DNA from: a virus
Direction: 5' to 3' (one strand)
IMG/VR virus record: IMGVR_UViG_3300045922_000161
Location: 1 to 43,528 of that record
Length of the DNA: 43,528 nt
The notes under the pieces were generated by a model. The model searched no databases. It saw only the letters and a list, made by a program, of their open reading frames with translations, and was not told where the DNA came from. Positions within the stretch are counted from its first letter, which is position 1, and the number at the start of each line of letters is the position of its first letter. Shown piece after piece: positions 2,385 through 42,956 of this stretch. Made by a program: the position numbers and the translations under genes.

Positions 2385-5300
2385 CTATCTGCGCCCGAAT
2401 AGATACTCCAACGGGGATACATCCTGCCCTTCGGCGGAGCGCCACGCGGCGTCGATCAGGCGGTTCATCTGCGTCGAGGGCAGGCCGAACGTCAGCCCCA
2501 GACCGTCCACGATGGCCTTGACCGTGGTCCGGTTGACGGTCTCGGCCTCGAGGTCGCGCAGGATCGCCGACGGGATGCGCGCCATGGTGTTCAGGATCGA
2601 CCCGTAGGCACCCCCGGACGGGAAGCCCGCGAACACGCTAACCGCGTCGCGGACGATGGGCAGTCCGCCCGCCACGGTGAATGCCGTCTCGCGGGTCAGG
2701 AAAGTGGCCCAAGCACGCGGCAGGTTCTCTTCATCGTCATCCGGCAGGCGCCCGGTGATCGCGGCGTAGAGGATCGCTTCGACCGCGAACAACATCGCCA
2801 GATCGACCGACAGCTTCAGCGCCTCGACGCCCGACCGGACCGAGAACCCTTCCTCGCGGAACACCCGCCGGGCTTTGTTGGTCCGCTCGATGGCGATGTT
2901 CATCTTGGCGAACATGTAGCTGCCCAGCGCGGTGAGCAGTCGCACCACGTCATCCTGCCGGCTCGTCCGGCTGGTGGTCCCGCGTTCGATGGCCGTCCTG
3001 TCCGAGAACTCGCCGCCGGCCTGCGCCCGGACGAGGGTGGCATCGGCCTCGGCCACGGCGTCGGTGTCGCTCATGCCCGCCGCTTTGGCCATGTCATAGG
3101 CCGCCATCCACGTCGGCATATCGATTGCGTAGAACTGGATTTTTTGCATCAGCCAGAACCCGGCGGGCGCGATGTAGCGCCTGATCACCCGGTCGTAGCG
3201 GCCCTCGAGCGGCCCTCGCAGGGTGTCGCCCACGATGTCCTGAATGTCCTTGTTGAACGTGGTCTGCCGCCGCCGCATGAACGGCGACGCTTCCATCACC
3301 GCCGCGACCGCCGCACGCGGGTTGGCCGCGTAGCGAAGCGCTGCTTTGGCGAAGTTCGCGCTGCCGACGACGACCATGGACTGCGGCAGGCCGGTCAGCT
3401 GAACGGCCACGGTGGTCAGGTTGAAGGCCAGCTTGGCTATGGTGAAGTTCGACTTCACCCGGCGGGCCATGGACCGCAGCCAATGGTCGGACGCCAACTG
3501 GCCAGCGGCCACGTCCATCACCCACAGTTCCAGCGTCTCGAGGTCCGGCAGCCGCCCGTGCTTGGCGAACAGCTCGCGGAACTGCTTGTTCTGGATGATC
3601 CGCCAGACCTCGGTCACGGCCTCGGAATAGGCCAGATCGTGCACGACCTGCGCGAGGTGCTGGTGAGCCACCTCGATGCCGATCATCAGCGGGCGCCCGC
3701 CCGACCCGTTCACCCGCTCGATCAGGTGCCCGGCTTTGGTCTGCGCCTTCGCGTAGGCCCCCGGCAGCAGGTTCTTCATCACCTCGGCGGTGTTGTCGTC
3801 CGTCACCATGGCCGACAGCTCGCCGTCATACTTGATCGGGTAGTAACCGCCCCGGTAGATGCCGAACGGGGTTTCGACGGGCAACGGCTCGACCTTGGCC
3901 GGGGCAACGCCTTTCAACCGCTTCTCACGGGCGGCAATCTCGGGCCAGTAGCTGTCGATCAAGTCCCACATGCCCTGCACGAAGTCCCAGTCCCGTTTGT
4001 CCAGAGACTTCAGTATTTCGGCCACCTGCGCCTTGGTGAAGCCTTGGCTGGCCGGGTCGGTCAGTCGTTGCAGGTTCCCCTCGTTGCCGGTGTTCAGCGC
4101 AACCGAGATGGCGTCCCACTTGGACAGCCCGCCGCGCACGAACGGGTAGTCCTTCTTGACCGCCATCTGGTTCATCTCGGCAGGCGTGTAGACCGAATAG
4201 AGGGCCTCTAGCTTCTTGGCCAAGTCCTCGCGGCGCGCGGTCGCATCACGGGTCGCGGCGTCGATCTTGGCCTTGATGTAGCGATAGGCCGGGCCGCCTA
4301 TCTCCTGCCCGTCAATCTCGCGCAGCAGCGTCGAGACGTTGATGAACAGGTTGAGATACTGCCGCCAGCCCCGCCTCCGCCGGTCCGCCGCCTGCGCCGT
4401 GCGACCGCGCGGCGTGCCCCGGATATTCCGCTCGAACCCTTCCGCAATCTCGGCCACGGCCTCGGCCAGCGTGCGCTGGCGCTGACGGTCGATCAGCTGG
4501 GCTTTTAGGCGAGCCGTATGCTCGATGTTGGTCAAGGCGTCCAACACGCCCTGCGCCTGATCGACAGTCAGCTGCCGGTAGTTCACCCGCTCGGCCCGCT
4601 CCAAGACCTCGGGCGGGATCGCCAGCTCGTTCTGCCGCCCTTGCTCGGTCATCCACGCGACGTAGCGCAGCAGCGCCGCGCGGCGATCCAGCTGGCGCCC
4701 GCTGACCTTGGTGAACTCGTAGGTCTCGAGGATCGCGTCGATGGGCTCGAGATAGTCCGGGGCGAGGTTCTTGCGGGTCGTGGCCGACTGCAACCGCTTG
4801 ACGCGGGCCTCTAGGCTTTCGACCATGGCCGCCGCCTTGCGGCTTTCGCTGTAGAGCATGAAGTTGATCAGCTGCCGCGACTTGGCCTCGAACGCCGCCT
4901 GCCGATCCCCGCGTTCCAGCGCCCGTTGCGCGTCGCTCGCAGCGCGGCGTTCGGCGGCGAGGTAGACGCTCGACCGCAACGCCTGCCGAAGCGGCAGGTT
5001 TCCGATCACGCGCTGTGCCGCCGCACGGGCCTGCTGTCGGCTCGTCGGCTTGCCTTTGACACCCTCGGCCCGGGCCAGCGCCCGCAGCTCGGCCACCAAC
5101 AACTGCCCCACCTTCTCGCCGTGCAGCGCGTCCAGCACTGTGGCGTCGGCCTCGGGCCGCAGCATCGGGTCGGGGTAGCGTTCCTGCATCACGCGCTCGG
5201 CCTCGGCGGCGGCCTCGGCGTCCAGCGTGGCACTGTTGGTCAGGGCGCGGAACAGGGCCTCGCCCGACCGGAAGCCGAACCACTGCGCAGCCTCGTCCAG

Positions 5301-8300
5301 CGGCACGGTGGGCTCGTCGGCTTTGGTCGCGTAGACCGCCTGCTTGCCGCGCGGCAGTGCGGCCACGGCAGCGGCCCCGAACCGCTCGACCAGTTCGGCC
5401 CGGTTCAGACGGGTCCTCGGCAGGTCGGGCTGATCGTCACCCAACCAGCGTCCGTTGGTGAACCACTCACGCGCGCGCTGATGCGGCTCCCGCATCAGCC
5501 GCTCGCGCTGGACCTCAATCTCCTTGGCCAGTTCGGTTTGGTAGGCCTCAGTCGCCCGCTGGCGGATCGGGGCCATGATGTCGCGCAGCAGCTCGCTCTC
5601 GGCCTCGTCTGCGGCCTGCTCCTGCAACTTCAGGAGACGGCCCCATGTCTCGGCGTCCACGCCCATCTGTTCGGCGCTGGTCGCGCTCACACGCCCCAAC
5701 CCCTCGTTCGCCTCACGGGCGTCGGCAAGCTCGCGCTCGGTCGCCAGCAGCCGGTCGAACACGCCGCGCATCTCGGGGCTGATCTTCACGTTCAGGGCCA
5801 GCGCCGTGCGGTAGAGTTGCCGCAGCCACTGTGTCACCCGGGCGAAGACGGACCGCAGCGCCAGCGTGGGCGCTTTGCCTTCCATCAGGTAGGCTTCCCA
5901 GCCTCGAGCGAACTGCTCGTGCAGCCCGACCGCGATCGCTGCGTCGGTGGCCCCGTCCCCGGTCGTGCCCTCGCGCAGGTAGCGGTGCACGTCATCGACG
6001 CTGATCGTGACACCGGGCGCCGCCGCCTTGCGCGCATCGGCGACGACACCGGCGGCGTTCTGCTTCCACCACTCCTTGACCGTCTCGAAGTCTGTGACCA
6101 CGCTGGGGTCGGCGCCTTCCATCTTGGCCAGCCGCTCGAGAATGAACAGGGCGTGGTGCCCCATCTCGTGCAGCACGGTCGAGAGGTTCTGATCGGCGAA
6201 CAGCGTGATCACGGGTGCGCTGTTGTCGGGCGGCAGGACAATCTGCCCTCGACGCCGCACCGGCCCGGTCTGGAACAGCGGCTGGGGTTTGCGGGCTTCG
6301 GCCCGCATCTCGGGCGTGATGTCGATGGCCCACACAAGCGGCAGAACGTCGGCGACCCCGGGCAAGGCGTCGAGGTTCGCCGCTAGCACGTCCAGCGGTG
6401 CCCGGGCGATTGTCCGTATGGCAGCTTCGCGCTCGCGACGCACCATCTTCTCCTCGACCTCGGCCTCGGCCTCGGCCATGAGTTCCGCGTCCGTCGCCGT
6501 GGCCAGCCGCCGATACCGCGCGATGTTCTCATTGGCCATCTGCTGATAGCCTTCCATCCGCAGCTGGACTTCGCGCCGGCGGAAGTCATCGGGCGGGTAG
6601 GGCATGTTGTTCAGCTGCGCCTGCATCGTGGCCAGCGTCTGCTCGAGCGTCGATACGGCGTCGTCCAGCTGCTTCTTGGCTTTCTCTTGGCGCGCGGCTT
6701 CGGACAGACCCGGAACAAGGCCAACCCGCTTCATTGCCGCATCGAGGGCCGCCTCGCGCGCGGCCGCGAGCTCCATGTCCAGCTGGGCGTTGCTCCCGGG
6801 GCTGATCTGCTCCATCAGTTCGCGCAGGCGCGCGGTGGGCAGGTTCGAGTTTTCCAGCGCCTTCTCGATACGCCGCTGTTGGTTGCGCGCGTCCGTAGAG
6901 TTGGCCGGCGGCGGCAGCGCGTCCACCCGCAGCTTGCCGCCATACTTCTTCGCCCACTTCTCGACGAACCGCTTCATCTGCTGGTCGTAGACGACCGTAA
7001 AGCCGGACCCGCCCAGCGTGATGTCGCTATTGCTCACCTCGCCCATGGGCTCGGCGAGAACACGCGCCGTCATCTCCCGCCCGATCACGTCGGACAGGGG
7101 GCGGGCGAACATGTTGGCGTGCGTCAGCGGGCCATCGCTGTTGGGCGCGCGCACGATCAGACCCGTCCCCGGATGAACGAACAGCTCCCCGTGCGGGTGC
7201 AGTTCCACGCGCCGCAGCCCGGCGTTCGGCCGCCCCGGCGGCACGTCGGACCAACTGATCCTATTGACGACCTCGCGCAGGCGCGTGTTCCAGCGACGGG
7301 CCTGCATCTGCGCCGGGGTCCACGCGAAGGTTTCGTAGTCGCCCCACGCCGCGAGGTTCAGCAGGCGCTTCATCATGACCTCGACCGCCGCCTGCCCCTC
7401 GAACGGCGTGAACGGCAGACGAGACCCTTTCGACGCGAGGTAGCCCGCAAACACCTCTTCCAACATCCGCGCGGCTTCGCGGTAGCTGGCAGCGGCGTCT
7501 TCGACCTGCTCGTTGGTGGCTTCGGGAGATGCGGCCAGTTTGATGAGATTGGCTTCGGCATCAGCCATTGCGTGTCTGAGGCCTTCCTTGCGGACCTCGT
7601 TGGTCAGCTCCCCCGAGAACTGAATGCGATCATAGTATGCCGCTTCCAGCGGGTGCAGCGGTATCCGCTGCGCCGCTTCCGCGCGGGTCTCGAACCCTTC
7701 CGATCCGCCCGCCTTCCGCCAATCGGAGGCAAGGTCGGACTGAACCTCCTCGACAAAGAACGTCGTGCGCCCGCCGATACGGCGGTCGGTCACGCGGGCG
7801 TGGACGACGATGTTGAGGGCCGGGGCGTCCCGGAAATGCGGGGGCGAGTAGGGCCTTGTGTATCTGTTCCGGTTGCGGCCCTCGTTGTGCAGCTCCGGGT
7901 AGTCGAGCAGATACTCGCGATAGTTCACTTTGTCCAAGCCTTCGTTCGGCTCGATGAACTCGCCGTATTCCGCCGCGAAGTCGCCGGCCCCGCTCGTGCC
8001 GTATTCTTCCAACAGGAATTGTTCCAGCGCCGCCACGGCTTCGTCGAAGGTGGAGAACTCGTCCGACAACAGCGGAACATAATAATCGCCGCCACCGCCG
8101 CTTTTGATGATCTCGAGCTCGACACGCCGCCAGCCGACCTCGACGGTCGTGGTATAGCTGACATCCGGGTCGCCGCTGAAATATTCGCTGCGCGCCAAAA
8201 TCTCGGCGTCCCTGACAACGCGCTGACGAATGCGACGAAGATCGCGCGCCAACACTTCCCACGCGGCGGAGATGTCGGCGTCGTCTTCGTCCGGGGTGGA

Positions 8301-11300
8301 CCCGTCCGTCAGAAAATTGTCTACCGCTACGCGCAAGCGGTCCCACAAGGCCTCTTGATCGGCATCGGGCACAAGCTCCGCCACGTCGTCACGAGCGTTC
8401 TCAACGAAGTCGTCCCAGTCTTCGTCGAACCACGCCTCGACAACTCTGGGCACATAGTCGTCAACCTGATCGTTGATGTATGCATCGTCCGGCTCCAGAG
8501 TTCGGGTTTCCCAAAACCGTCGCGGCGGGATGTCAACGGAGGCGACGCCGGGCTGCCCAACCAGCGTTTGCAGCTCTATCTCTTGCCCTTCCAGAAACGC
8601 CACCACCTCATCCCGGGTCACGTTCCGGTCGCCCTGTTCGGCCAACCACTCGTTCACCCCGGACCACTCGATCTCGGTGGCCTTGACGCCCGGCAGCTTG
8701 GCGATGATCGCAATCCAATCGTTCGGCCGAGCCGCCTTCTGCTTGGCCGCGCGCACCGCCGCCGTCAGGGCGCTGTAATACCACTTGCTTTCAGCGGACT
8801 GATAGAGAACCTGCGAGGTGCGGTCATCGAACACGACCTCGGGCACGGCCTCGTCGAACAGGATCGCCACGTCGCCGTGGCCGGTCCGGCCGCTGCCGTC
8901 CTCATGGACGTAGAGCCCCCGGTAGCCCGCTGCTTTGACCGCATCGACCATGGTCGCTATGCTCGGCCCGAGGTCGAGCGCGTCCGGGTTGTCGAACACG
9001 GGGTAAAGACTTTTCGGGTCCACCGCGACAATGTGGTGCCACGGGCCGAGCCCGGACTCTTTCAGATAGCCGGTGCCCGGCTCAGCACGGCCGTCCGGCA
9101 TTCTGCGCCGGGGGTTGATCCCGTAGAAGATGCCGATCGGCCCGTGCTTGTATTCAAAGCCGTGCATCCCGCCACTGCCGGGCTTCCCCTGCTTGATGAC
9201 ATCGCGCGGCGCCTGCGACCAGTGATGCAACTCGACCTTCCCGTCGATCTTGCGGATCGGCAGGTTCGGCCGGGTCGGGTCGCTGAACTCGGTCCCGGGC
9301 GGAGCAACGGGCTGGGTTGGGACGAAAGGCCGCTCCCGGAAACGATACAAGGCGTAGCCTGCCGCCCGCTCGGCATCGATCTTGTAGTCTTCAATATCCG
9401 GGACGATGCCCTCGGTCGAAACCCACTCGGGCAGCAACACAGCCTTCTGGTCGGCGTAGATCGTCTTGGACGGGTTGGCGCGGTTATGCTCGCCGTAGGG
9501 CCCGAAGTTCACCCAACTGTTCTGCCCGCGTGTCTCGGTCGTCATGGCCCGCGCTGCCAGCGGCGAGAACATGCGGACGTGAGCCTGCCACGCATTCTCC
9601 TCGCCGCGCGGGCCGAAGGCCGCCCCCTCGGACCCGTGCCCGAACACGTCGTGAACGATGCGGAAAATGTCGTTCACAACGGTCTCGCGCCCGTCGATGA
9701 CGATGCCGGTCGGAGCCAGCAACGGGTGACGACTGTCGGCCGCGTTCAAGCTGCCGAAACCGTCCTCGGTCGGGAACACCCACAGATGCTTGTTCTGTTG
9801 CAGGTCCCGGATCGCATCCGCCGGGGTCGCATAGGGGTTCTCGCCCTTGATAAACTCGAACGTGAACCCGAGCCGCTGCACGGCCCTGAACTGCGCCAGC
9901 GTCTCGCGGGCCAGCGCCTCGTAGGCTGCGCGAACCTCGGGGTTGTCGAGGTCGGACAGCGGAGCCGCCTCGTAGGCCGCCGCGATTTTCTTGGCGCGCT
10001 CCACGTCCACGGTCGCATAGACAGCCTGATGGCGCACCGGCAACCCAGCTTCCAACATGTAGCGGGTAGCCGCCAGCCGAACCCCCGGCACCGGGCCGGG
10101 ACTGGCACGCTCCAAGTCAGGCAACCGCCGTGACGGGTAGTCATTGATGCCACCAAACCTGAGACCGATCCGCTCGTGCTCGTGGGCGACCTGCAAGATC
10201 GCCCGCCGCGCAGCCTCGCTGGTGATGCGGTTCAGCGTGGCCGCGCGAACTTCGGGCGTCTCGCCCGGCAGCAAGGGCGGCTCAAAATCCTGCCCCAGCA
10301 CGTTCGGCGTCGGTCCCTCACCGTCCGGGGACGCCGGGGGCAACGGCAGGTCCGGCTCGCTCGCAGTGAGCGTCCGCCCCATAGCCGCCGCACCCGGGGC
10401 GGCCGCCCGGGTTGACGCCTCGCGATCAACACCCAGCGAACGCGCCACCCGCAACACCGTCCGGTCGGACGCGATAGTGGGGTCGATACCCCGTGCCACC
10501 AGCGCCGCCCGGACGGCCACGGCCGCAGGCGCGGTGCTGTTCTCGCGAACGGCGCGAGCCAAATCGCCGTAGGTCATCGGCGCGTCGGGATCGGTTCCGG
10601 CCAACCGGACCTCGGCTACGGGGAACTGCTCGAGAAACGCCTCGGGGTCCGGCGCCCGCGCCGCGTTCGTTGCATAGAGGGCCGCGTAGATCGAAGCATA
10701 CTGGCGGGCCACATCGGGCGCCTGACCGGCATCGACGAACCGCTGATAGGCGACCTCATACACTTCGTTGCGGATCGCCTCGGGCGCGTCAACGTCGAGC
10801 TGGTTGTTGGCAATCTGCTCCGCCACGCGCCGCAGTTCCGCTTCCATGCGGGCGCTGCTTTGAACGCGCTCGAAAGGCGTCATGTGCAGCGGATCGAGCC
10901 GGACGTGCGGACGCAGCAAAGTCTCGAACTCGGTGCCCACCACGTCGGTCAGCCAAACCGACATCGGGATCGACACGTCGTGCCCGTCCTGAATAGCCGC
11001 GTCGAAAGTGGTCCGGTCCACCCCCATCGCCGCCAACACGGTGTTCAACGCCGCGCTGTCCTCGACACGCTGGGCGAGCAATTGGGCACCTTCGGCAGAG
11101 ATGCGAACGGTCTCGACAGAGGTGCCCTCGGTGGCCGCCGCCGCCCACTCGCGGAACCTGTTCGGCGCGGTGTCGCGCAATTCGGTCTTCCGCGCGACCT
11201 CGGACAGCCGGTCGAACATCGCCTCGGTGGCAGCGCTGGCCTCACGCTGTTCGACCTCGCGCAGCACCCAAGCACGGGCGCCCGGAGATAGGGACAACAG

Positions 11301-12683
11301 GATGCCCCGCAGCGTGGCCGCCGCCGAGCCGGACAAGACACCCTGCATGAAGGTGTCGTCGAACGCGCCACGCTCGGGGTTGTAGTTCTGCTCGATCAGG
11401 TTTTGCAGGATGGCGCCAACCGTCTCGACCGCCGCCTCGCCGCCGGCGGTGATGGCAAGGTCGCCCGCGATGGCCGACCAGCGACGACGCGCCATGGGCG
11501 CCGCACGCCGCAACAGGTATTCGATGGACAGCGCCTGAATGAACCCCGCCGGCCCGCCTTGCAGGACGTAACGAGCCGCGCTTTCATGATCCATGCCCGC
11601 CGCACGGGCCCGCTGATAGGCTTCGTCCATGCCCGCGCCGGTCGCGGCGACAGCCGTGCCGACAAACCCGCTAGCAGCGCCGACGGCAACGAACGCCGCC
11701 AGAGACCCCAGCCCCGCGCCGAGCTCAGAAGCAATGGAGCCCTCGGTCCCCGGAACGGGCGCGAGAGTTTCCTGCAACCGGCTGGCGATCCAGTTGCCGA
11801 TGATGAACAGGTAGCGATCCTGCACCGGCGTGACGAGGCGGGCACGCAGGCTGGCCAGTTCCTCGGGCGGTGCGCCGCGTTCCAGCGCATCGGCGTATGC
11901 CTCGAGGTTGGCGATGGTGGCCTCGGTATTGGGCGTCTGCAAAAGCATGGCCCGATACCACGCCGCCCGTTGACGAGCGCCCGCCGCGACCCGCGCCCGA
12001 ACCTCGGGGTCCGTCATGTCCTCGCCGCGACCCCACGCCTCGAGCCCCGGGTCGGTGCCAGCCAACATGCCCGCCAGCCGGTCCTGCCCCAGCGCCAGCC
12101 CGCGCAACGACGAACCAATGGTGGCAGGAACCGCGCGCACCGCCGAGCGCGAAAGCTGCACGAGCGGGTTGCGCTGGACGATGTTCGGCTGCCGGAACAG
12201 CCGCTCCATCTCGGCCAGATAGGCCGCATCACGGCGGGCGTAAGCGGCGTTCTCCTCGTAGGCCAACCAGCGAGCCGTGGCCGGCGCGTTCAGCAACGCG
12301 CCCGTGAGACGAGCCGCCTCGGCCTCGGCCTCGTAGGTCGCCCGCTCAGCCGCCAACACCGAGGCAGGAACGCGCCGCCCCGCCTGCTCAAGACTGTCGC
12401 CGAGACGGGCCACGTCGGGCGGCACGGCAGGCGTGGTCGCCACGACACCTGCAGCCTGCCGCGCAGCCCGAGTGCGACCCTGCTCGGCCAGCGACACGAT
12501 GTTCTGCCGCAGATGGACCTCAGGGTCGAAACCCGCGTCGAGGTCAGGCATCGCGGTGAGACGAACGGGCAACGCCGTGGAGCCCAACAGCGCCCGCGTC
12601 GTCTGCCCGACGGGATCGGCGGGCTCACTCAGGGTCGCGCGGAAGTGCGCAACTGGATCGAAGACACCGTTAGCGGTAGACAT
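2385..12683 (-). CDS. Giant polyvalent virion/ejection protein (3432 aa)
   Basis: This single 10.3-kb frame is about 24% of the genome. Following the ejection protein gene, it is probably packaged and ejected with the DNA. Visible pieces in order are: an Ala/Gly hydrophobic stretch near 325-345; HDVFGHG at 1011-1017 followed by GEENAWQAH, a metal-site-like block; a possible ADP-ribosyltransferase-like region at about 1145-1290; a segment at about 1300-1372 (GVKATEIEWSGVNEWL) known from phage polyvalent proteins; EEVQSD at 1645-1650 and GGSGFTVVYD at 1891-1900, which recur together in such proteins; a zincin-type HEMGHH at 2172-2177; long charged helices at about 2250-2700; and a C-terminal domain resembling LPD38 with membrane-like helices from about 3070 to the end. 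Domain names rest on motif memory and no search was run. The start overlaps the upstream gene by 14 bases. Confidence 0.85.
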   Translation of the reverse strand: MSTANGVFDPVAHFRATLSEPADPVGQTTRALLGSTALPVRLTAMPDLDAGFDPEVHLRQNIVSLAEQGRTRAARQAAGVVATTPAVPPDVARLGDSLEQAGRRVPASVLAAERATYEAEAEAARLTGALLNAPATARWLAYEENAAYARRDAAYLAEMERLFRQPNIVQRNPLVQLSRSAVRAVPATIGSSLRGLALGQDRLAGMLAGTDPGLEAWGRGEDMTDPEVRARVAAGARQRAAWYRAMLLQTPNTEATIANLEAYADALERGAPPEELASLRARLVTPVQDRYLFIIGNWIASRLQETLAPVPGTEGSIASELGAGLGSLAAFVAVGAASGFVGTAVAATGAGMDEAYQRARAAGMDHESAARYVLQGGPAGFIQALSIEYLLRRAAPMARRRWSAIAGDLAITAGGEAAVETVGAILQNLIEQNYNPERGAFDDTFMQGVLSGSAAATLRGILLSLSPGARAWVLREVEQREASAATEAMFDRLSEVARKTELRDTAPNRFREWAAAATEGTSVETVRISAEGAQLLAQRVEDSAALNTVLAAMGVDRTTFDAAIQDGHDVSIPMSVWLTDVVGTEFETLLRPHVRLDPLHMTPFERVQSSARMEAELRRVAEQIANNQLDVDAPEAIRNEVYEVAYQRFVDAGQAPDVARQYASIYAALYATNAARAPDPEAFLEQFPVAEVRLAGTDPDAPMTYGDLARAVRENSTAPAAVAVRAALVARGIDPTIASDRTVLRVARSLGVDREASTRAAAPGAAAMGRTLTASEPDLPLPPASPDGEGPTPNVLGQDFEPPLLPGETPEVRAATLNRITSEAARRAILQVAHEHERIGLRFGGINDYPSRRLPDLERASPGPVPGVRLAATRYMLEAGLPVRHQAVYATVDVERAKKIAAAYEAAPLSDLDNPEVRAAYEALARETLAQFRAVQRLGFTFEFIKGENPYATPADAIRDLQQNKHLWVFPTEDGFGSLNAADSRHPLLAPTGIVIDGRETVVNDIFRIVHDVFGHGSEGAAFGPRGEENAWQAHVRMFSPLAARAMTTETRGQNSWVNFGPYGEHNRANPSKTIYADQKAVLLPEWVSTEGIVPDIEDYKIDAERAAGYALYRFRERPFVPTQPVAPPGTEFSDPTRPNLPIRKIDGKVELHHWSQAPRDVIKQGKPGSGGMHGFEYKHGPIGIFYGINPRRRMPDGRAEPGTGYLKESGLGPWHHIVAVDPKSLYPVFDNPDALDLGPSIATMVDAVKAAGYRGLYVHEDGSGRTGHGDVAILFDEAVPEVVFDDRTSQVLYQSAESKWYYSALTAAVRAAKQKAARPNDWIAIIAKLPGVKATEIEWSGVNEWLAEQGDRNVTRDEVVAFLEGQEIELQTLVGQPGVASVDIPPRRFWETRTLEPDDAYINDQVDDYVPRVVEAWFDEDWDDFVENARDDVAELVPDADQEALWDRLRVAVDNFLTDGSTPDEDDADISAAWEVLARDLRRIRQRVVRDAEILARSEYFSGDPDVSYTTTVEVGWRRVELEIIKSGGGGDYYVPLLSDEFSTFDEAVAALEQFLLEEYGTSGAGDFAAEYGEFIEPNEGLDKVNYREYLLDYPELHNEGRNRNRYTRPYSPPHFRDAPALNIVVHARVTDRRIGGRTTFFVEEVQSDLASDWRKAGGSEGFETRAEAAQRIPLHPLEAAYYDRIQFSGELTNEVRKEGLRHAMADAEANLIKLAASPEATNEQVEDAAASYREAARMLEEVFAGYLASKGSRLPFTPFEGQAAVEVMMKRLLNLAAWGDYETFAWTPAQMQARRWNTRLREVVNRISWSDVPPGRPNAGLRRVELHPHGELFVHPGTGLIVRAPNSDGPLTHANMFARPLSDVIGREMTARVLAEPMGEVSNSDITLGGSGFTVVYDQQMKRFVEKWAKKYGGKLRVDALPPPANSTDARNQQRRIEKALENSNLPTARLRELMEQISPGSNAQLDMELAAAREAALDAAMKRVGLVPGLSEAARQEKAKKQLDDAVSTLEQTLATMQAQLNNMPYPPDDFRRREVQLRMEGYQQMANENIARYRRLATATDAELMAEAEAEVEEKMVRREREAAIRTIARAPLDVLAANLDALPGVADVLPLVWAIDITPEMRAEARKPQPLFQTGPVRRRGQIVLPPDNSAPVITLFADQNLSTVLHEMGHHALFILERLAKMEGADPSVVTDFETVKEWWKQNAAGVVADARKAAAPGVTISVDDVHRYLREGTTGDGATDAAIAVGLHEQFARGWEAYLMEGKAPTLALRSVFARVTQWLRQLYRTALALNVKISPEMRGVFDRLLATERELADAREANEGLGRVSATSAEQMGVDAETWGRLLKLQEQAADEAESELLRDIMAPIRQRATEAYQTELAKEIEVQRERLMREPHQRAREWFTNGRWLGDDQPDLPRTRLNRAELVERFGAAAVAALPRGKQAVYATKADEPTVPLDEAAQWFGFRSGEALFRALTNSATLDAEAAAEAERVMQERYPDPMLRPEADATVLDALHGEKVGQLLVAELRALARAEGVKGKPTSRQQARAAAQRVIGNLPLRQALRSSVYLAAERRAASDAQRALERGDRQAAFEAKSRQLINFMLYSESRKAAAMVESLEARVKRLQSATTRKNLAPDYLEPIDAILETYEFTKVSGRQLDRRAALLRYVAWMTEQGRQNELAIPPEVLERAERVNYRQLTVDQAQGVLDALTNIEHTARLKAQLIDRQRQRTLAEAVAEIAEGFERNIRGTPRGRTAQAADRRRRGWRQYLNLFINVSTLLREIDGQEIGGPAYRYIKAKIDAATRDATARREDLAKKLEALYSVYTPAEMNQMAVKKDYPFVRGGLSKWDAISVALNTGNEGNLQRLTDPASQGFTKAQVAEILKSLDKRDWDFVQGMWDLIDSYWPEIAAREKRLKGVAPAKVEPLPVETPFGIYRGGYYPIKYDGELSAMVTDDNTAEVMKNLLPGAYAKAQTKAGHLIERVNGSGGRPLMIGIEVAHQHLAQVVHDLAYSEAVTEVWRIIQNKQFRELFAKHGRLPDLETLELWVMDVAAGQLASDHWLRSMARRVKSNFTIAKLAFNLTTVAVQLTGLPQSMVVVGSANFAKAALRYAANPRAAVAAVMEASPFMRRRQTTFNKDIQDIVGDTLRGPLEGRYDRVIRRYIAPAGFWLMQKIQFYAIDMPTWMAAYDMAKAAGMSDTDAVAEADATLVRAQAGGEFSDRTAIERGTTSRTSRQDDVVRLLTALGSYMFAKMNIAIERTNKARRVFREEGFSVRSGVEALKLSVDLAMLFAVEAILYAAITGRLPDDDEENLPRAWATFLTRETAFTVAGGLPIVRDAVSVFAGFPSGGAYGSILNTMARIPSAILRDLEAETVNRTTVKAIVDGLGLTFGLPSTQMNRLIDAAWRSAEGQDVSPLEYLFGRR

Positions 12684-15600
12684 GCGGCTGGCGCTCCCGC
12701 AGAACCATGTCAGGCGTGATACCAGCCTGCTGCATTATGTGCAATATTTGCGCACGCCGGGTCTCGGCATAGGCATGTAGCAGCTCACTCTCGCTCATGC
12801 GGATCGGCCGGCCGTCCGGCCCTTCAACGTCGTATTGGGGCTCCCCCGCCATACCGAAACCACTCAGCACCCACTCGCCCCAACCGGGCACAACGCGCCC
12901 GGCGCGTATCGACGCCGGCACATCCTCGATACGGACTTCGGGCGTGCGCCCCTCGGCCACGGCGATCATGTCGTTCCACAGTCGCGCGGTCTGCTCTTCC
13001 CGCTCGGCCTGCGTCATGCCGGCGAACTGCGACCCGATGGCCTGCCGGATGCTGTCGGGGATGTCGTTGTAGGCTACGGGCACCGTCCGAGGCGTGGCAC
13101 CGGGCGCCACCCGGTTCTCCACGTCAAACCGAGGAACCAGCGTCGGCCCCCATATCAGACCTGCCGGCTCAATCTCGACCGGGGTCAGCATGTCCGCGAC
13201 AATCGCCCGCAGCTCCAGCCGGTTCGGTGCGGACCCCGTGGCACGGATCACGTCAACCACGCGGGCCTCCAACGCCCTGCGGAACCGCTCGACCATGGCG
13301 CGGTCCTCAGCCCGCATCTGCGTCGGATCGTCGGTCACGTTGATGCCGGTCATCATCTGGAACGTCGAGGACGCATCGCGCCACAGCTGCACCGGGTCCA
13401 CACCGTCCAACGCCGCGCGCATAGCTGCGTGCCGAGCCTCGGGCGTCCGCGCGCCACGCAGCTCGGTCTGCAACGCCGCCAGCCGCCGATAGTCCTCGGC
13501 GTTCAACCGCCCAGCCCCGAGGTGGTATTGCAGGTCGGTCGCAAGGAAGGCTTCGGGGTCGGAGACGGCCTGATCCACCAGCGCCCCGTAGAGCACGGGA
13601 TCGGTCAGGTTGACGCCCTGCTGGAACACGCGGCCGGCCGACGTGAGCGCCGCCGTCAGCTCGTGCCCAAGCCCGATGGCAAGCTCCGGCGGGATCGTCC
13701 AGTCGCCCGTGGACACGCCCCGCTGATAGGCCTGATCGAACAGCGCCCGCCGGGTCTCGCCTTGAATGGCGTCGTAGGCCCGCCGTTGCAGCTCCAATTC
13801 CTGCAACATCGCCTGCCGCAGTTGCAGGTCCGGCTCGGCCAAAGCAGCTTCCAGCCCCGCCGCGAAGTTCGGGCGAGGCATCATGTCGGGCAACTGCGGA
13901 GCCAGTGCAGTCCCATACTCCGCAGACACCGCCGCGCGGTATTGGCCAACTGTTATGGTCGGGGACGCATTGGGCAGAAGTTGGCTGAGCGGCGTGCCGG
14001 GATCGGCCTGCAAGATGGCCAGCCCCAACTCGCGGCCGTGCACCTGCATGATGAACTGGTTCGCAGCGGTCACGCCTAGCCCGGCCGCCGCCAGCGCCGC
14101 ATTGTTGGCCTCGGCCACGGCCAACCACGCCGCGCTGGCATTGGGGTCCTGTTCGCCATGGCGGCGCAGGTAGGTCAACAGGCGCGTGCCGTAGGTGTCG
14201 GACGGGTTATACGCACCCCCGCTTTCCAGAAACCGCCGCAGCCCCTCGTTGCCACCAAGATGCGCGACCGCGCGCATCCCGGAATGCGTGACCGTGACCC
14301 CGTTGATCTGCGTCCCGATGAACCGGAACAGCCCGTTGCGCTCGATGAACTGGTCGATGTCTTGGAAATGCCAGCGTTCGACCGCCCGTTGCAGGTCGGG
14401 GCCGGCGAGAAACTGCTCGGGCGTGGTTCCCGGCGGCAGCACCCCAGCGGCGATAGCTTCGTTCAGTCGAGCGCGGCTGAACTGCAACCGCCCGAAGTGC
14501 CCGATACCGCCCGCACCGGGGACGTTGTTGCGCGCATACCAGTTACCCCCGCTTTCCGAAAGGATGAGGCTTTCGGTGCCCGGCACCTCCGCAACCTGCC
14601 CGCTGGGCACATCCGTGCGGCGCGGACCGGGGCTGGCGCCGGGCGGAGCGTTGGGCGGGCCGGCGAACGGCACAGACGCGGAAGGCGGCATGGCCACCAC
14701 AAAGTCCGGCAGGATGCCCCGGTTCCCCGCCTCGATGGCCGCACGCTGCCCCTGCGTCTCGCCGCCGTAATACCAGAACGGGTCGCGGTCAGTGTGAAGG
14801 TCGAGATGCAGATGACCCCGCGCGACACCGACGCCGCCGATACGACGCGCGCGCCAATACTGGATCAGCGGGGCGAGCTCGTCACCCGACAGCCGCCGAC
14901 CGTTCAGGATGACGGCCACGTCAGCGGCCAACCCGTGGTCATGCCGAGTGGAACCAGACCGAACGCCGCCCGGTGTCTCGGCGGCGGTCTGCCCGCCGCT
15001 GAACACCGACACGATGGCGCCCGGCCCGTAGACCGCCGTGGCCGCCTCGGACAACCGCGCGGCTAGCGTGGCGTCGATCTCCAACCGACGGGCCGTGGTC
15101 GGCGAAATGTCCATACGGACACCCGCCATCGTGGGCGACGGCGGAATGACGAACGCCCCGCTCCGGGCGACCATCATGGTCGTGCCGGGCACCCGCTGGC
15201 CGGTCGTGTAGGTCTCGCGCGGGGCGACTGCGTTACGGAACGCCGGGTTCGCCGCCAACCCAGCAGCTACGCCCGCCGCCAACTGCGGGCCGTAGGCACG
15301 GCCCATGGTATAGTTCGTCGAGGCCGGGGTGCTGATGGCCTCGCGAACCCGGTCCGCCGCAATCTGCGCCCGGACCATCGGGGCCAGCGCGTTCTCGACA
15401 CGGGCTTGGTCTTCGCCCGACATGCGCTCGCGGTTCTCGTTGAAGAACGCCTGCGCGCGCAGCACGCCATTGGGGGCTTCGACCATGCGCGAGATGATCT
15501 GCCGCAAGGTCTGCGAAACCGCCGCCCGCTGCGACGCTGCGATGGCTTCGGGCGAGGAGCCGTTCAGCATCCCCAGACGGGCAATCTCATTCAGCGCCTG

Positions 15601-16152
15601 CGTCAGCGCCGCCTCACGGGCCTCGGGGTTGTCGTAGGCAACCAGCGCCTCGTTCAGAAAGTTCTGCGCGCTGGCCTCGAAGGTGGCGTTGGTGTAGCGC
15701 CGCAGCTCACTTCCATCGTGCCGGATGAACTGCTCGCGCACACTTTGGGTGATGCTGTCAGTCGCCCGGTCGAACACCTGTTGAGCGGCGGGCGACAGGT
15801 TGGCACGGCGCGCCTCCCGCGCCGCGTCCACCGCCTGCTCGGCCGCCAGCCGGGCCTCGCCAATTGCGTTGGCGCCGGTCTGCATGAGGTAGCCGGTCTG
15901 CGGGTCGAACCGCAATTGCCGCAGGTCTTCGATGTAGGCGTTCTGCGCCTCGCGGGCCTCGTTCTCGGCGCGCAGCATCTGAACAGCTTGGAGGTCGCGG
16001 GCCAGCCCGCTGATCGCGCTGCCCAGCCCAATCAGCGCGTTTGCCCGCGCTATCGTGCCCGAGTTGTCGATCAGAATGGGCCGATAGCGAACATCCATGT
16101 CCTGCTGCCGTGCGGGACGGCTTCGGACCTGCTGCTGATACTGCTCGACCAT
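12670..16152 (-). CDS. Internal virion (ejection) protein with M15-like peptidase and lysozyme-like domains
   Basis: This 1160-residue protein combines two cell-wall activities. Residues 1-330 are mostly helical and Ala-rich. Residues about 370-455 look like a VanY/M15 metallopeptidase: S-T-R-H404-D-H-G-L-A-A-D411 and G-H447-L-H449-L-D give the expected zinc ligands for cutting peptidoglycan cross-links. Residues about 525-690 look like a transglycosylase/lysozyme: ESGGNW with the probable catalytic Glu533, then a GIGHFGRLQFSRARL segment. The remaining roughly 470 residues are helical without a recognised motif. In podoviruses such internal proteins open the wall so the tail channel can be extended into the cell. 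The start ATG 16152 lies 20 bases after the preceding gene, and the end overlaps the giant gene. The role is well supported; the peptidase assignment is slightly less so. Confidence 0.85.
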   Translation of the reverse strand: MVEQYQQQVRSRPARQQDMDVRYRPILIDNSGTIARANALIGLGSAISGLARDLQAVQMLRAENEAREAQNAYIEDLRQLRFDPQTGYLMQTGANAIGEARLAAEQAVDAAREARRANLSPAAQQVFDRATDSITQSVREQFIRHDGSELRRYTNATFEASAQNFLNEALVAYDNPEAREAALTQALNEIARLGMLNGSSPEAIAASQRAAVSQTLRQIISRMVEAPNGVLRAQAFFNENRERMSGEDQARVENALAPMVRAQIAADRVREAISTPASTNYTMGRAYGPQLAAGVAAGLAANPAFRNAVAPRETYTTGQRVPGTTMMVARSGAFVIPPSPTMAGVRMDISPTTARRLEIDATLAARLSEAATAVYGPGAIVSVFSGGQTAAETPGGVRSGSTRHDHGLAADVAVILNGRRLSGDELAPLIQYWRARRIGGVGVARGHLHLDLHTDRDPFWYYGGETQGQRAAIEAGNRGILPDFVVAMPPSASVPFAGPPNAPPGASPGPRRTDVPSGQVAEVPGTESLILSESGGNWYARNNVPGAGGIGHFGRLQFSRARLNEAIAAGVLPPGTTPEQFLAGPDLQRAVERWHFQDIDQFIERNGLFRFIGTQINGVTVTHSGMRAVAHLGGNEGLRRFLESGGAYNPSDTYGTRLLTYLRRHGEQDPNASAAWLAVAEANNAALAAAGLGVTAANQFIMQVHGRELGLAILQADPGTPLSQLLPNASPTITVGQYRAAVSAEYGTALAPQLPDMMPRPNFAAGLEAALAEPDLQLRQAMLQELELQRRAYDAIQGETRRALFDQAYQRGVSTGDWTIPPELAIGLGHELTAALTSAGRVFQQGVNLTDPVLYGALVDQAVSDPEAFLATDLQYHLGAGRLNAEDYRRLAALQTELRGARTPEARHAAMRAALDGVDPVQLWRDASSTFQMMTGINVTDDPTQMRAEDRAMVERFRRALEARVVDVIRATGSAPNRLELRAIVADMLTPVEIEPAGLIWGPTLVPRFDVENRVAPGATPRTVPVAYNDIPDSIRQAIGSQFAGMTQAEREEQTARLWNDMIAVAEGRTPEVRIEDVPASIRAGRVVPGWGEWVLSGFGMAGEPQYDVEGPDGRPIRMSESELLHAYAETRRAQILHIMQQAGITPDMVLRERQPHVYR

Positions 16153-16172: not shown

Positions 16173-16742
16173 TTACGCGATCTTCGCGCTGTAGCGGTAG
16201 GCCGTCCCGATACCACCGATGAGCGAACCGACAGCTCCGATCACCCCCGCTTGCCGCGCGGCCCGGCTTTCGATCCGCGCCACCCGCAGCGTGCCTGCCG
16301 CATTCTCGCGATCAAGCATGGCCTGCGTGCGGTAGTTCCACGCCTGCATGTCGAAGTCTTCGGCTTCCAGCGCCGCATTGCGCCGAGCACGGGCGTCGTC
16401 CAGTGCGGTGCCGACGGCCGTATCGACAAGAACGTCGAGCGGGCTGCCGAAACCAAGATCGAGGTTCGAGGCGGCCAGCTGGGCAATCTGCCTGCCCATC
16501 AGCTGCTTGCCCTCGTTGCGAACCCGCTCGCTTTCCTCGGCCCCGCGCAACATGGCATCGCGCGCCCGCCGATCGGCAAACAGCGCGTTCTGCTCGTTGA
16601 CACGGGCCTGCATCTCCATCATGCGGGCGTGCTCCTGCGCCCGCGCCTCGATGGCCGCCGCCTGCGCCTTGCCTGCCTCGTATTGACCTATCGCCCCGAC
16701 GACGGACCCGAGTAGCGTCAGCGCCTCGAGCACCCCACACAT
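16173..16742 (-). CDS. gp14-type internal virion protein B
   Basis: This 189-residue protein (start MCGVLEALTLLGSVVG) has a hydrophobic N-terminus with small residues, a long charged helix (about 20-85), the block GFGSPLDVLVDTAVG near 100, then another long helix and a C-terminal Gly-rich hydrophobic end (GVIGAVGSLIGGIG). This layout matches the gp14-like internal core proteins of podoviruses, which enter the host membrane during DNA ejection. The start at 16742 shares bases with the upstream stop (ATGA), which decides it against a longer frame. It lies directly before the large ejection protein, as in related phages. Confidence 0.8.
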   Translation of the reverse strand: MCGVLEALTLLGSVVGAIGQYEAGKAQAAAIEARAQEHARMMEMQARVNEQNALFADRRARDAMLRGAEESERVRNEGKQLMGRQIAQLAASNLDLGFGSPLDVLVDTAVGTALDDARARRNAALEAEDFDMQAWNYRTQAMLDRENAAGTLRVARIESRAARQAGVIGAVGSLIGGIGTAYRYSAKIA

Positions 16743-17209
16743 CAGCCGTCCCCCTTCATCCAGAACGCTTGCGCGAGCGCACCATTTGGCAACTTCTGCG
16801 CCGGCGCAAGGGTGAACCCGATCCTTCGCAACCAAGAGACCGCCAACGTATTCCTAGCATCGACGACGTTGAACAACAAGCGGTGCCGCTTGCGCCAGTC
16901 CTCGTGCAGGATTGACTTCGTGTAGCGGGCGATGTAGCGCCCCATGACGGTGAGTTCGTCCGTTCCCAGAAGCCACGGGATGCCGGTCAGCCCGACCAAC
17001 CCGGGCTGAACGCACCCGAACATGCAGACCAACCGCCCGTCGTATCGGCCGGAATAGACCGGCCCTTGGGATGCGGCCAGATGCTCCATCGCCTCGTCGG
17101 GCGTCTGCCCGTGAAGATCGCGCAACTCGCGGCAGTCGGCAACCCGCATGTTCCGGGCCAGCACCGCAAAGTCGCTCGGTTCCGCTGGGCCGATGTGACA
17201 CCGCGTCAT
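16742..17209 (-). CDS. gp13-type virion protein with GNAT-like fold
   Basis: This 155-residue protein begins MTRCHIGPAEPSDFAVLARNMR, a typical start of the GNAT-like family that in T7-type phages includes gp13, a protein needed for assembly of the internal core. Further features are RYDGRLVCMFG, the central strand VGLTGIPWLLGT and the C-terminal VDARNTLAVSWLRRIGF, which corresponds to the last helix-strand of acetyltransferases. The usual acyl-CoA-binding Q/RxxGxG/A is not evident, so acetyltransferase activity is doubtful. The start ATG 17209 overlaps the preceding stop by four bases (ATGA); a longer frame opening at 17380 lies within the upstream gene and was rejected. Confidence 0.78.
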   Translation of the reverse strand: MTRCHIGPAEPSDFAVLARNMRVADCRELRDLHGQTPDEAMEHLAASQGPVYSGRYDGRLVCMFGCVQPGLVGLTGIPWLLGTDELTVMGRYIARYTKSILHEDWRKRHRLLFNVVDARNTLAVSWLRRIGFTLAPAQKLPNGALAQAFWMKGDG

Positions 17210-19638
17210 CGCCCGAAAATCCAATCGATCAGGATGCCGTTGATCGTCGCCGGCATCGGCTCGTGCTGCTCGATCAGCAGCTCCCCGTTGGTGGACCAGT
17301 CCGAAGACGGGTTGATGCGCACCGTCCCGGTGAACAGCGCCATGCTCTCGTTCCAAGCCTCGGTTGCCCGCTGCCGCCATTCGACCGGGGGCAGATAGGT
17401 GCCGTCATCCGCAACCGCCGACACGCGCAGGCCGCGCGTGTTCTCTACCCGCAACCGGACCTCGGTGATGGTTTTGTGCCGACCCGCCATATGGCCAATC
17501 TGGTTCACCGCGCCCACGTCGAGGTCGAGCGTCCTGATGCGTCCGGTGTAGCGGTAGCCGACGCTGATCGTCATCCAGACGGGCGGCGCCGGAGCTCGAG
17601 ACAACGGCGGGAACGGAACGGTGTCCGGCGTCTCCTCTTCGTTCGGCGGGGTGTAGACTTGGCCGAAGATAGTGTAGAGGTCCAACTGGATCGCGCCATT
17701 CACGACCGGCAGGTTGTGGATCACATCCCCATTCACGACCGCCGAGACGGTCGCGCCTTCCAAATGATCCAACCCGCGCACAATGCCGAACGGGGCGACG
17801 TAGACAACACGCAGCCCGCAATCCAGATGGTGCGCCTGCTCGGGGGTCGTCGCCTCGTAGTTGTCGATCCGCTCGATGTAGCGCACCGGGGCACCCGCGA
17901 CCGTGCGACGGACCTGTAAGTAGACGACGTTCTGGTCGCCTTCCTCAATCACGGTCACGTTCTCGACACGGGGATCGGTGCCACCCAGCACCACGCGGGT
18001 CCAGCCCCAGATGTCGTGCTCCAGCATGTAGGTGAGGGCCAGCAGACTGCCGTCGTCCATGACGCACCAGACGATGCTATCCGGCTTGCGCTGGTAGGCC
18101 ATCGACACCACGCGGCGGCCACGGAACAGATGCCGGGCCAGCAACGACAGTTCGGTGCTGACAATCTCACGGTCCTCGTTGAAGTCGCGCACCGCGTCGC
18201 CGCCGCGCTGGGCGTGCAGCAGAAAATCGCCGACGACAACCGGTTGCACGCCCTGCGTCCCCCAGCGCGTGATCGGACGCAGGATGATGTTGGTCGGCGA
18301 CAGATAGCCCTTCTGATCCCCGCCGCGTGCCACCCACTCGCCCGACCGGGTGAGGATCATCAGGTCGTTCATGGGGACCAGCGCCTCTATTTGCTGAACC
18401 CCCGACGCCCGGATGCGGAAAGTGATCGCGTCACTGTCCCGCAACGGACTGGACACGCGGAAGTTCCGATAGTTGGTGGACTGACTGGCCCACACCCCGG
18501 CAGGCTGGTTGTGGGTGCTGGCCAACCACAGACGCTGCTCGAAGAACGCGGCGACGCCGGGGTAGTTGCCCTCCCCAACGAACGGCTGCCGCTCAATCTG
18601 CGGCCCATCGCTCAGGTCGGCGACGATGTTCTGATCGACGAACGTCGTGCCGGTCGTGCTGCCGATGAACCCGAACACGCCGTTGTCCTCTTTGTAAACG
18701 ATGTAACGTTCGGCGCCGGGAACGGCATCCCACGAGATGCGGTTGCGGTTGCCATCGATGGACAGGTCGTTGTCGGTGACCTCGACAATGACGCTGGGCA
18801 GGCTTTCCTCGCCTGTCTCGGCCGCGACGGTGGAGACACGGTAGCGGTAGACCTCGGGCACGTCCACGTTTTCGGCCACCTCCGCAACCGCCGACACGTT
18901 GTCGGGCGCAACGGTCGTGATCGCGAAGTCCTCTTCCTCTAGCGTCCACTCGGTCGGCGACACGCGGGTCAGAACGTGCACCGGATAGTCCCGGTGCACG
19001 AGGATCATCTTGTCTTGGTCCTGCGCGTAGTTCAGCGAAAAGGGCTCGTCCGTCAGCTCGTAGGGCGTCTCGATCACGACTTCGGGGATCGCGACCATGC
19101 CGAAGTCGCTCAGGCTGGTATCGAGCGATAGGTCCACCCCCCATTGGTTTTTCAGCGTGAACGTGGTCGCGGACGGAGTGGACGCGACGTAGAACAGGCG
19201 GTTGTTCCAGCCCAGCCGCGCAGGGTAGTTGCGCAACTGCACCCGCTCGCCGACCGTCAGCCCATGGGGCACGCTGCCGCTATTGAACACGGCAACAGTC
19301 CCGGCGGTCACGTTCAGCGTCTCGACCGTTCGCGCCGGGTTCAGCAGGTAGCCGCCGTTGGTGATGAAACGCAAAGTCCGGTTGCCGAAGTCGAGGACGT
19401 AACTCTCACCGGGACCGACCTCGAACGGCAACTGGAAGTTCCGCACGTTCCCGTCGTAGATTGGCCCGACAAAGAACGTGCCGCCCCGAAACCGCGCCCC
19501 GCCCTGCGGCTTGATGACGAAGTTCGTCATCTCCTTCGTGGCGCTTTGATACTTCGACACATCCGGGCGCGAATACATGCCGGGAGACAGCTCGCCCCCG
19601 GTCAAGTTCATCTGGAACGTGCGATAGGCCTCGCTCAC
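17206..19638 (-). CDS. Tail tubular protein B (gp12-like, tail nozzle)
   Basis: This 810-residue protein forms the distal tail tube of short-tailed phages. Its N-terminus (FQMNLTGGELSPGMYSRPDVSKYQSATKEM, split by alignment to TNFVIKPQGGARFRGGT) is the hallmark of the family. The remainder is rich in beta strands, including EERLWLASTHNQP-like and TNYRNF-like segments (near 370-400) and an RTLDLDVGAVNQIGH segment near 710. Length is close to other members. It starts at GTG 19638 with AGGA four bases upstream and overlaps the stop of tail tubular protein A (GTGA). It ends in the ATGA overlap with the gp13-type gene. No oddity was seen. Confidence 0.9.
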   Translation of the reverse strand: MSEAYRTFQMNLTGGELSPGMYSRPDVSKYQSATKEMTNFVIKPQGGARFRGGTFFVGPIYDGNVRNFQLPFEVGPGESYVLDFGNRTLRFITNGGYLLNPARTVETLNVTAGTVAVFNSGSVPHGLTVGERVQLRNYPARLGWNNRLFYVASTPSATTFTLKNQWGVDLSLDTSLSDFGMVAIPEVVIETPYELTDEPFSLNYAQDQDKMILVHRDYPVHVLTRVSPTEWTLEEEDFAITTVAPDNVSAVAEVAENVDVPEVYRYRVSTVAAETGEESLPSVIVEVTDNDLSIDGNRNRISWDAVPGAERYIVYKEDNGVFGFIGSTTGTTFVDQNIVADLSDGPQIERQPFVGEGNYPGVAAFFEQRLWLASTHNQPAGVWASQSTNYRNFRVSSPLRDSDAITFRIRASGVQQIEALVPMNDLMILTRSGEWVARGGDQKGYLSPTNIILRPITRWGTQGVQPVVVGDFLLHAQRGGDAVRDFNEDREIVSTELSLLARHLFRGRRVVSMAYQRKPDSIVWCVMDDGSLLALTYMLEHDIWGWTRVVLGGTDPRVENVTVIEEGDQNVVYLQVRRTVAGAPVRYIERIDNYEATTPEQAHHLDCGLRVVYVAPFGIVRGLDHLEGATVSAVVNGDVIHNLPVVNGAIQLDLYTIFGQVYTPPNEEETPDTVPFPPLSRAPAPPVWMTISVGYRYTGRIRTLDLDVGAVNQIGHMAGRHKTITEVRLRVENTRGLRVSAVADDGTYLPPVEWRQRATEAWNESMALFTGTVRINPSSDWSTNGELLIEQHEPMPATINGILIDWIFGR

Positions 19639-36860: not shown

Positions 36861-37682
<822 letters not shown>

Positions 37683-42380: not shown

Positions 42381-42956
42381 TCACGAACCCGGCGGTTTCG
42401 GCTCCATGGGATACATCTGACCCCACACGGTCGCAATCCGCTTGGCGAACGCTTCATCGACCAAATGCCAGATGGCCGCGCTGTCCGCCAACCGGCGGTC
42501 GCCGGCCTCGGTGACACGGGGGTTCCTCTCTTCGGTGACCCGCTTGCCGCCCAAGCAGCCGTAGGGAACCACGGCCACCCAGTCGCCCGCCTGCGTCCGA
42601 TACCACATGCCGCGCAACGGCCAGCGCAACTCGACGCCGGCGCCGACCGCTTTCGTGACCCGCACCGCGTCGGCAGGCATCCGAACGGCGTAGGCCAAGG
42701 CTTTCGTGACCTGCACCGCACTGGCAAGCGGCAGCGGAACGGCGTAGGCCACGGCCTTCGTAACCTGCACCGCGCCGGCAGGCATTCGGACGGCGTAGGC
42801 CACAGCCTTCGTAGTCTGCACCGTGCTGGCGGACGGCAGCGGGACAGCGTAGGCCGCAGCCTTCGTTACGAGCACCTCGTTCGCAGCCGGTTCCGACGGA
42901 CCGGGGGTCTGTTGGACAGTGTAGCCTACAGCTTTGGTGATCCTGATCTCGGTCAT
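42381..42956 (-). CDS. Tandem-repeat tail-region protein
   Basis: This 191-residue protein has five to six repeats of about 17-18 residues in its first 105 residues, each opening V-T-K-A-x-A-Y-A-V. Two forms alternate: one continues PLP-x-A-S-x-V-Q, the other RMPA-x-A-V-Q/R. The unique C-terminal part (WPLRGMWYRTQAGDWVAVV...) ends in a helix-rich stretch. Alternating short beta repeats suggest a fibrous or solenoid element of the tail. The family is not recognised. ATG 42956 overlaps the upstream stop (ATGA). Confidence 0.7.
   Translation of the reverse strand: MTEIRITKAVGYTVQQTPGPSEPAANEVLVTKAAAYAVPLPSASTVQTTKAVAYAVRMPAGAVQVTKAVAYAVPLPLASAVQVTKALAYAVRMPADAVRVTKAVGAGVELRWPLRGMWYRTQAGDWVAVVPYGCLGGKRVTEERNPRVTEAGDRRLADSAAIWHLVDEAFAKRIATVWGQMYPMEPKPPGS
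42685..42856. repeat. Coding tandem repeats with alternating 54/51-bp period
   Basis: ACGGCGTAGGCCA starts at 42685, 42739 and 42790, with a variant (ACAGCGTAGGCCG) at 42844. The spacings 54, 51 and 54 show a 105-base super-unit, so the array grew by duplicating a pair of repeats. Confidence 0.85.

Follow-up and report, generated by a model that had tools for sequence, protein, structure and literature searches.

A cysteine-free giant protein of a BPP-1-like podophage as a likely ejection protein with exchangeable enzyme cargo

The locus raises the question of what kind of protein would occupy a single gene of such length in a small phage genome, and whether it enters the host together with the DNA. 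The window (the whole analyzed stretch of 43,528 nucleotides, IMG/VR record IMGVR_UViG_3300045922_000161) has a perfect 127-bp direct repeat at its ends, which leaves 43,401 bp of unique genome; the giant gene takes up 23.7% of this, in agreement with the 'nearly a quarter' given by an earlier sequence-only reading. That reading also had the 3432-residue frame and its coordinates right, leaving the strand unstated. A single open reading frame was found on the minus strand at 2385-12683 (3432 aa, ∼378 kDa; its ATG is at 12683 and its stop codon ends at 2385), and the plus strand over the same interval was full of stops. GC contents at codon positions 1/2/3 were 0.69/0.48/0.85, resembling those of the portal and capsid genes. 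The coding signal was strong end to end, with no break across 500-codon blocks, and was continuous with the neighboring genes. The phage was identified as a BPP-1/T7-like podophage by its portal, GP7-type capsid, Bbp16-type cement protein, tube, nozzle and terminase.

The late genes were arranged as portal, protease, capsid, tube, nozzle, phrog_308 protein, T7 gp14-family protein, lysozyme protein, giant protein and fiber. This order agrees with T7 and BPP-1, and both the gp14-family gene and the gene order of the T7 gp14-gp15-gp16 operon were present. Equivalent slots are Bbp12-Bbp11-Bbp10-Bbp9 in BPP-1, gp14-15-16-17 in T7 and gp52-51-50 in N4. At its start, the giant gene shares 14 nt with the gene upstream of it. 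The genes of this slot are as follows.

16742..17380, minus strand: internal virion protein (phrog_308, E 6e-26)
16173..16835, minus strand: T7 gp14-family internal virion protein (PF24072, E 1.1e-7; phrog_418)
12670..16152, minus strand: 1160-aa protein in the gp15 slot, with endolysin-like regions and zero cysteines (phrog_26675, phrog_10475)
2385..12683, minus strand: 3432-aa Bbp10-like giant protein (P0001), zero cysteines

A search for a diversity-generating retroelement (DGR) around the fiber gene returned repeats only, and a TR/VR pair was not seen. Elsewhere in the window, four degenerate 54-nt direct repeats were noted at 42634-42883, and GAGCCG-type repeat runs, Glu-Pro-rich if the plus strand is read, at 37500-37642.

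To describe the anatomy of the giant protein, 85 relatives, drawn from IMG/VR as well as from phage records, were compared with the window protein, giving 86 members, and N-arm and zincin profiles were placed in each. The constant parts and the bay between them are listed below.

12180..12458, minus strand: LPD22 domain, residues 76-168 (Pfam PF18834, E 3.3e-8, above cut-off)
11661..11717, minus strand: hydrophobic segment, residues 323-341 (Kyte-Doolittle scan; several relatives have a similar one near residues 250-300)
10617..11540, minus strand: conserved N-arm, residues 382-689 (profile in 77/86 members)
6279..10616, minus strand: variable cargo bay, residues 690-2135 (1446 aa), differing in length and contents among relatives
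5937..6278, minus strand: zincin-like metallopeptidase, residues 2136-2249, HEMGH at 2172-2176
2388..5936, minus strand: conserved helical C-core, residues 2250-3432 (∼1180 aa; phrog_9880, E 9e-276)
2766..2822, minus strand: hydrophobic 19-mer, residues 3288-3306 (many relatives have one about 135-150 aa before the C-terminus)

The C-core is homologous to Bbp10 and to the products of more than 500 loci, and was matched at 100% coverage, with E values reaching 1e-134 once the close cyanophage relatives are set aside. Its identity was 28-33% to BPP-1 Bbp10 and to the homologues of CP2, SR18, AF and others, and 58% to the nearest phages, the cyanophages Nsp-JY18 and Mel-JY33. The two marks of a Bbp10-like giant protein, a homologous full-length C-core and a zincin directly before it, were thus found together; the zincin profile was present in all 86 members, and most of the nine that miss the N-arm are proteins cut off by a contig end. 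Among the 74 complete members, the N part measured 622 ± 39 aa and the C part 1287 ± 45 aa, whereas the bay between N-arm and zincin ranged from 15 to 2037 aa, that of the window being the fourth longest, and 98% of the variation in total length went with bay length (R2 = 0.98). Pfam searches of 47 bays returned ART-PolyVal (17), PBECR5 (6), PBECR3 (2) and zeta toxin (2), with ddrB-ParB, GGDEF, RadC, GNAT, LPD3, LPD23 and DUF3293 once each. Because the frame is constant and the bay contents differ, effector exchange happens in the bay and not in the frame; the comparison shows modules, as predicted from sequence, being swapped between phages while the chassis stays. The homologue in Nostoc phage Nsp-JY18 (L003:11508-23546) is 4012 aa long with a 2037-aa bay and zero cysteines, and is annotated only as 'lysin'.

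Bbp10 of the Bordetella phage BPP-1 and its homologues in CP2, SR18, AF and Nsp-JY18 share the N-arm, zincin and C-core by homology, as well as the slot before the fiber genes; the bay of Bbp10, however, is 177 aa, whereas the window bay holds three or more modules. The likeness to polyvalent proteins (PMC5512222) extends to LPD22, the zincin, several unrelated modules per chain and the late-gene neighborhood. At least two unrelated domains with predicted activities were recognized (HDVFGH, zincin, LPD22, EEVQSD and ART-like), and the gene is placed among late virion genes, within the ejection operon. The kind of protein is therefore already known, and the earlier proposal of a polyvalent multi-domain protein holds; what is new is the chassis and cargo anatomy, the cysteine signature and the HDVFGH module. 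HDVFGH, which lacks a Pfam model, is a possible further difference from the polyvalent proteins of PMC5512222.

Four segments were delimited within the bay.

9390..10130, minus strand: HDVFGH domain, residues 852-1098 (phrog_3170; motif at residues 1011-1016)
8748..9329, minus strand: ART-like segment, residues 1119-1312, with an HHWS ... GIFYG ... D motif
8484..8711, minus strand: EWSG..WL segment, residues 1325-1400, also in other cargo bays
6927..7889, minus strand: EEVQSD/GGSGF..YD domain, residues 1599-1919

The HDVFGH, EEVQSD, GGSGF..YD and HEMGH motifs picked out by the sequence-only reading were all present, as was the hydrophobic 19-mer, and none is a chance resemblance. HDVFGH homologues occurred at no fewer than 577 phage loci, the EEVQSD domain matched its family profile at 148 bits (E 1.7e-47), and every relative (85/85) had an HExxH in the equivalent position, that of L024 lying just beyond the automatic distance cut.

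Besides serving as a module, HDVFGH is encoded by small phage genes that stand alone. Residues H1011, D1012, H1016, E1028, H1035, E1050 and Q1054 were invariant or nearly so, and across 145 phage and bacterial sequences the motif region was invariant at R, H, D, H, G, E, H and Q, with a second E at 99%. These conserved polar residues likely form a metal site. The AF2 model (67 sequences) was compact and confident (pLDDT 93.8, pTM 0.92); structural helices alone, the outcome that the sequence-only reading had named as counting against it, is thus not what the prediction gave. No match to HDVFGH was found in Pfam, and Foldseek against the PDB returned nothing below E 1. The same search did reach 21 viral models at E < 1e-3, most of them phage proteins that are giant, polyvalent or unnamed, which indicates that the fold search itself works. 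An aromatic amino acid hydroxylase (AAAH) fold, considered for its H-x4-H ... E spacing, was ruled out, as the PDB held no fold match. The small stand-alone phage proteins (L129, L132, L134-L136, L141, L146, L159 and others) are ∼270-480 aa long.

The EEVQSD domain is widespread in phages (330 loci, scanned with one relative as query, since the pooled alignment was too diverse). Its AF2 model had a moderate pLDDT of 78, with a beta-alpha core and a long helical hairpin, and comparison with the PDB gave no credible fold match, only helical hairpins; to call it GNAT-like would be guesswork. The ART-like segment is common to ∼40 phage proteins, and a candidate H-Y-D arrangement (HHWS/GIFYG/D) is visible in its sequence. 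It resembles in this the H...Y...D-like motif of ART-PolyVal (PF18760, Tox-ART-HYD2 type), a family carried by homologous bays. Unlike ART-PolyVal, the window segment had no match to PF18760 above cut-off, was also missed by an ART-PolyVal-type profile built from the relatives, and aligned to such a family in hhalign (E 1.4e-5) over the C-terminal 40 columns only. Residues 1119-1312 were accordingly filed as ART-like rather than as an ART, the only weak one among the assignments proposed earlier. The adjoining EWSG..WL segment is 30% identical to a copy in L067 that comes bundled with that protein's ART.

Cysteine content was compared as a possible mark of delivery. The giant protein had 0 cysteines in 3432 residues vs. 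46 in 8455 in the other window proteins (Fisher 2e-7). The family as a whole had 19 in 191,682 residues (chassis, 8 in 146,357; bays, 11 in 45,325), and 74/86 members had none. In the same loci, cysteine made up 1.76% of the tube, 0.61% of the nozzle, 0.72% of the MCP and 1.46% of the polymerase, and 0.5-1.8% of most other conserved proteins, with the lysozyme partner and a small head-protease set near zero. The lysozyme partner of the window had 0 in 1160 residues, and the gp14-like and phrog_308 partners carried 0.5-0.85%, so the absence of cysteine is not universal in the operon. The proven ejected proteins gp15 and gp16 of T7 (0 in 2065 residues, L372:5826-12052) and gp50, gp51 and gp52 of N4 (L338:9524-22524) were cysteine-free, whereas T7 gp11, gp12 and gp17 and the N4 sheath do have cysteines. 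The lack of cysteine in N4 vRNAP has reportedly been remarked on in older literature. The Dar proteins of P1, injected by a contractile-tail phage, were depleted about threefold (0.30% vs. 0.93%) and not free of it.

The same contrast was seen within HDVFGH, with 5 cysteines in 25,904 residues of phage or prophage-like copies vs. 163 in 12,304 (1.3%) for the small copies from bacteria (Fisher 5e-73, without phylogenetic correction; those from bacteria belong mostly to one clade); as phage and bacterial copies are largely separate clades, it does not stand for many independent events. Small stand-alone phage copies had 0 in 6386 residues, their conserved neighbors 1.27%, a difference that predicts delivery for these copies too, and these proteins may be unrecognized injected proteins. 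The simplest reason for a cysteine-free chain would be unfolded passage through the tail and the oxidizing periplasm, followed by refolding without disulfides. A literature search found no paper stating a cysteine rule, and the text of Iyer 2017 (PMC5512222) mentions neither cysteine, BPP-1 nor a fixed chassis.

Two known ejection proteins offer a closer comparison. T7 gp16 is likewise the last and largest internal virion protein, cysteine-free and placed before the fiber gene; it holds its own endolysin-type domain, whereas in the window phage that function sits in the preceding protein. N4 gp50 is alike in its length of ∼3500 aa, its place as last of three ejection genes and its zero cysteines. 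The N4 vRNAP consists of an N domain, the enzyme, an HExxH-bearing C1 and a helical C2 of ∼1100 aa that has no structural relatives (PMC12633501). That the C-core might be homologous to the N4 vRNAP C-terminal domain was considered and rejected: the layout fits, and the sequences fail to match even when 18 diverse vRNAPs are used. The best hhalign match was at P 0.0043, in the zincin only, and a deeper alignment gave P 0.12 or worse; no RNAP family match was found in the window at the thresholds used. With no profile homology, the giant protein is better said to work like the N4 vRNAP than to be one, and by this analogy the N4 vRNAP is its best functional analogue.

On balance, we consider it likely that the giant protein is the large ejection protein (gp16 slot) of a BPP-1-like podophage, a delivery chassis with exchangeable enzyme cargo. 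The N-arm, zincin and helical C-core would form a fixed frame packaged in the head, which would follow the gp14-like and lysozyme-bearing partners out through the tail and help to bridge the envelope. The ∼1450-aa bay would bring the HDVFGH, ART-like and EEVQSD modules into the cell within the same chain, where they would refold in the cytoplasm and act at the start of infection, perhaps against host defenses. Packaging and delivery, as proposed from the sequence earlier, are supported by synteny, homology to the Bbp10 slot and the family-wide exclusion of cysteine; the last, shared with the ejected proteins of T7 and N4, points indirectly to carriage into the cell with the DNA. No virion proteomics of the window phage or of Bbp10 was found in the literature, the BPP-1 virion paper having analyzed two major bands only (PMC3863775). 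A purely structural or envelope-breaching protein, its modules decayed or structural only, would suit the 'lysin' label of the Nsp-JY18 homologue, a chassis of more than half the chain, and a window EEVQSD copy that reads WTPAQMQ where the consensus is WTTGxQQ. It is improbable, however, given that HDVFGH retains all its catalytic-type residues and is predicted to fold confidently, that well-known enzymes occur in the bays of relatives, and that the peptidoglycan enzyme-like regions sit in the adjoining 1160-aa protein. Least probable is a late protein that stays in the producing cell and lost its cysteines through helical composition or drift. In its favor is the negative outcome of the search for virion data; against it, the loss reaches globular cargo and HDVFGH copies whose bacterial homologues have 1.3% cysteine, neighbors in the same genomes are normal in this respect, and the gene is syntenic with ejection genes.

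Delivery could also involve cleavage, with the zincin cutting the chain, either inside the head or following entry, so that the modules are freed separately, as the sequence-only reading had suggested. Conservation fits this idea. Just past the zincin segment, an HEQFARG motif at ∼2252 holds the probable third ligand, and (H/Q)Exx(F/W)AR follows the HExxH in most relatives; HExxH and a downstream Glu, the pattern of a zincin, are thus both present, the Glu being a ligand by inference. Virtually every relative keeps the pair where cargo and core adjoin, the position expected of a releasing protease. Self-cleavage was, moreover, proposed by Iyer 2017, and DdrB of P1 is processed (PMC5512222). 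Against it, the N4 vRNAP has its HExxH 1272 aa from the C-terminus vs. 1260 in the giant protein, yet is described by Iyer 2017 (PMC5512222) as packaged without processing, and near-bayless relatives (15-17 aa; L076, L035) retain the zincin without cargo to release, which argues that it is not kept merely for that purpose. With the ligands conserved and no sign of cleavage, cutting by its own protease is unsupported and we regard it as doubtful. The earlier reading was therefore right on the kind of protein and on the idea of delivery, went too far on self-cleavage, and overlooked the constant chassis with its variable bay, the lack of cysteine and what the relatives are.

Injection of polyvalent proteins has hitherto been predicted mostly by their context. 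A chassis that stays constant around a bay of measurable length offers a natural cargo-delivery system comparable over hundreds of phages, and the cysteine signature is a cheap, falsifiable delivery test for any phage protein. HDVFGH, abundant and strongly conserved, with no Pfam model or solved fold relative and with SAM/homocysteine neighbors in bacteria, is a concrete enzyme candidate.

These bacterial copies occur in two contexts. In the first (hosts including Aquimarina, Enterovibrio, Aureispira and Actinophytocola), HDVFGH lies beside or is fused with an AdoHcyase-NAD-like protein and DUF3293. This unnamed trio is found as an operon or as one fused protein (L279:3784-6118, L283:3837-6275); HDVFGH and DUF3293 are also paired in some phages, as neighbors or in one chain (L126, L146, L150), and a literature search found no paper on DUF3293. 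In the second, mainly actinobacterial context, the neighbors were a class-V aminotransferase (30 of 62 loci), a SAM methyltransferase (26), a Cys/Met PLP enzyme (26) and a homocysteine S-methyltransferase (21). AhcY was present in 6/62 at the threshold used, one being the AdoHcyase-like gene of L302, and 32/62 bacterial loci had a SAH or homocysteine enzyme. The conserved actinobacterial cluster (L307:4890-9882, L331:1762-10481) appears to be an uncharacterized sulfur/methyl pathway, sometimes with AhcY. Sulfur/methyl-donor metabolism is thus a lead for the putative substrate of HDVFGH. A further, linked pair of claims is offered tentatively and is unlikely to hold in full: that cysteine exclusion marks envelope-threaded phage proteins, and that HDVFGH is a new-fold, probably metal-dependent SAM/homocysteine enzyme, shared with bacterial clusters and injected to alter methyl-donor pools. 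If true, injected effectors could be read from sequence, with many small cysteine-free phage proteins nominated as delivered, and methyl-donor pools would be altered when restriction or other methylation-linked defenses decide infection.

Two minor observations concern the relatives. Xanthomonas phage homologues L009 and L033 carry a second HExxH (HEVLH) inside the bay, at residue 926, and score 23-27 bits against the N4 C-terminal-domain profile. A near-identical HDVFGH gene (HDAIAH variant, 467-526 aa) was present at L315-L325, in assemblies labeled Microbacterium, Croceicoccus, Verrucomicrobia and Acidobacteria, which suggests either contamination or a mobile element.
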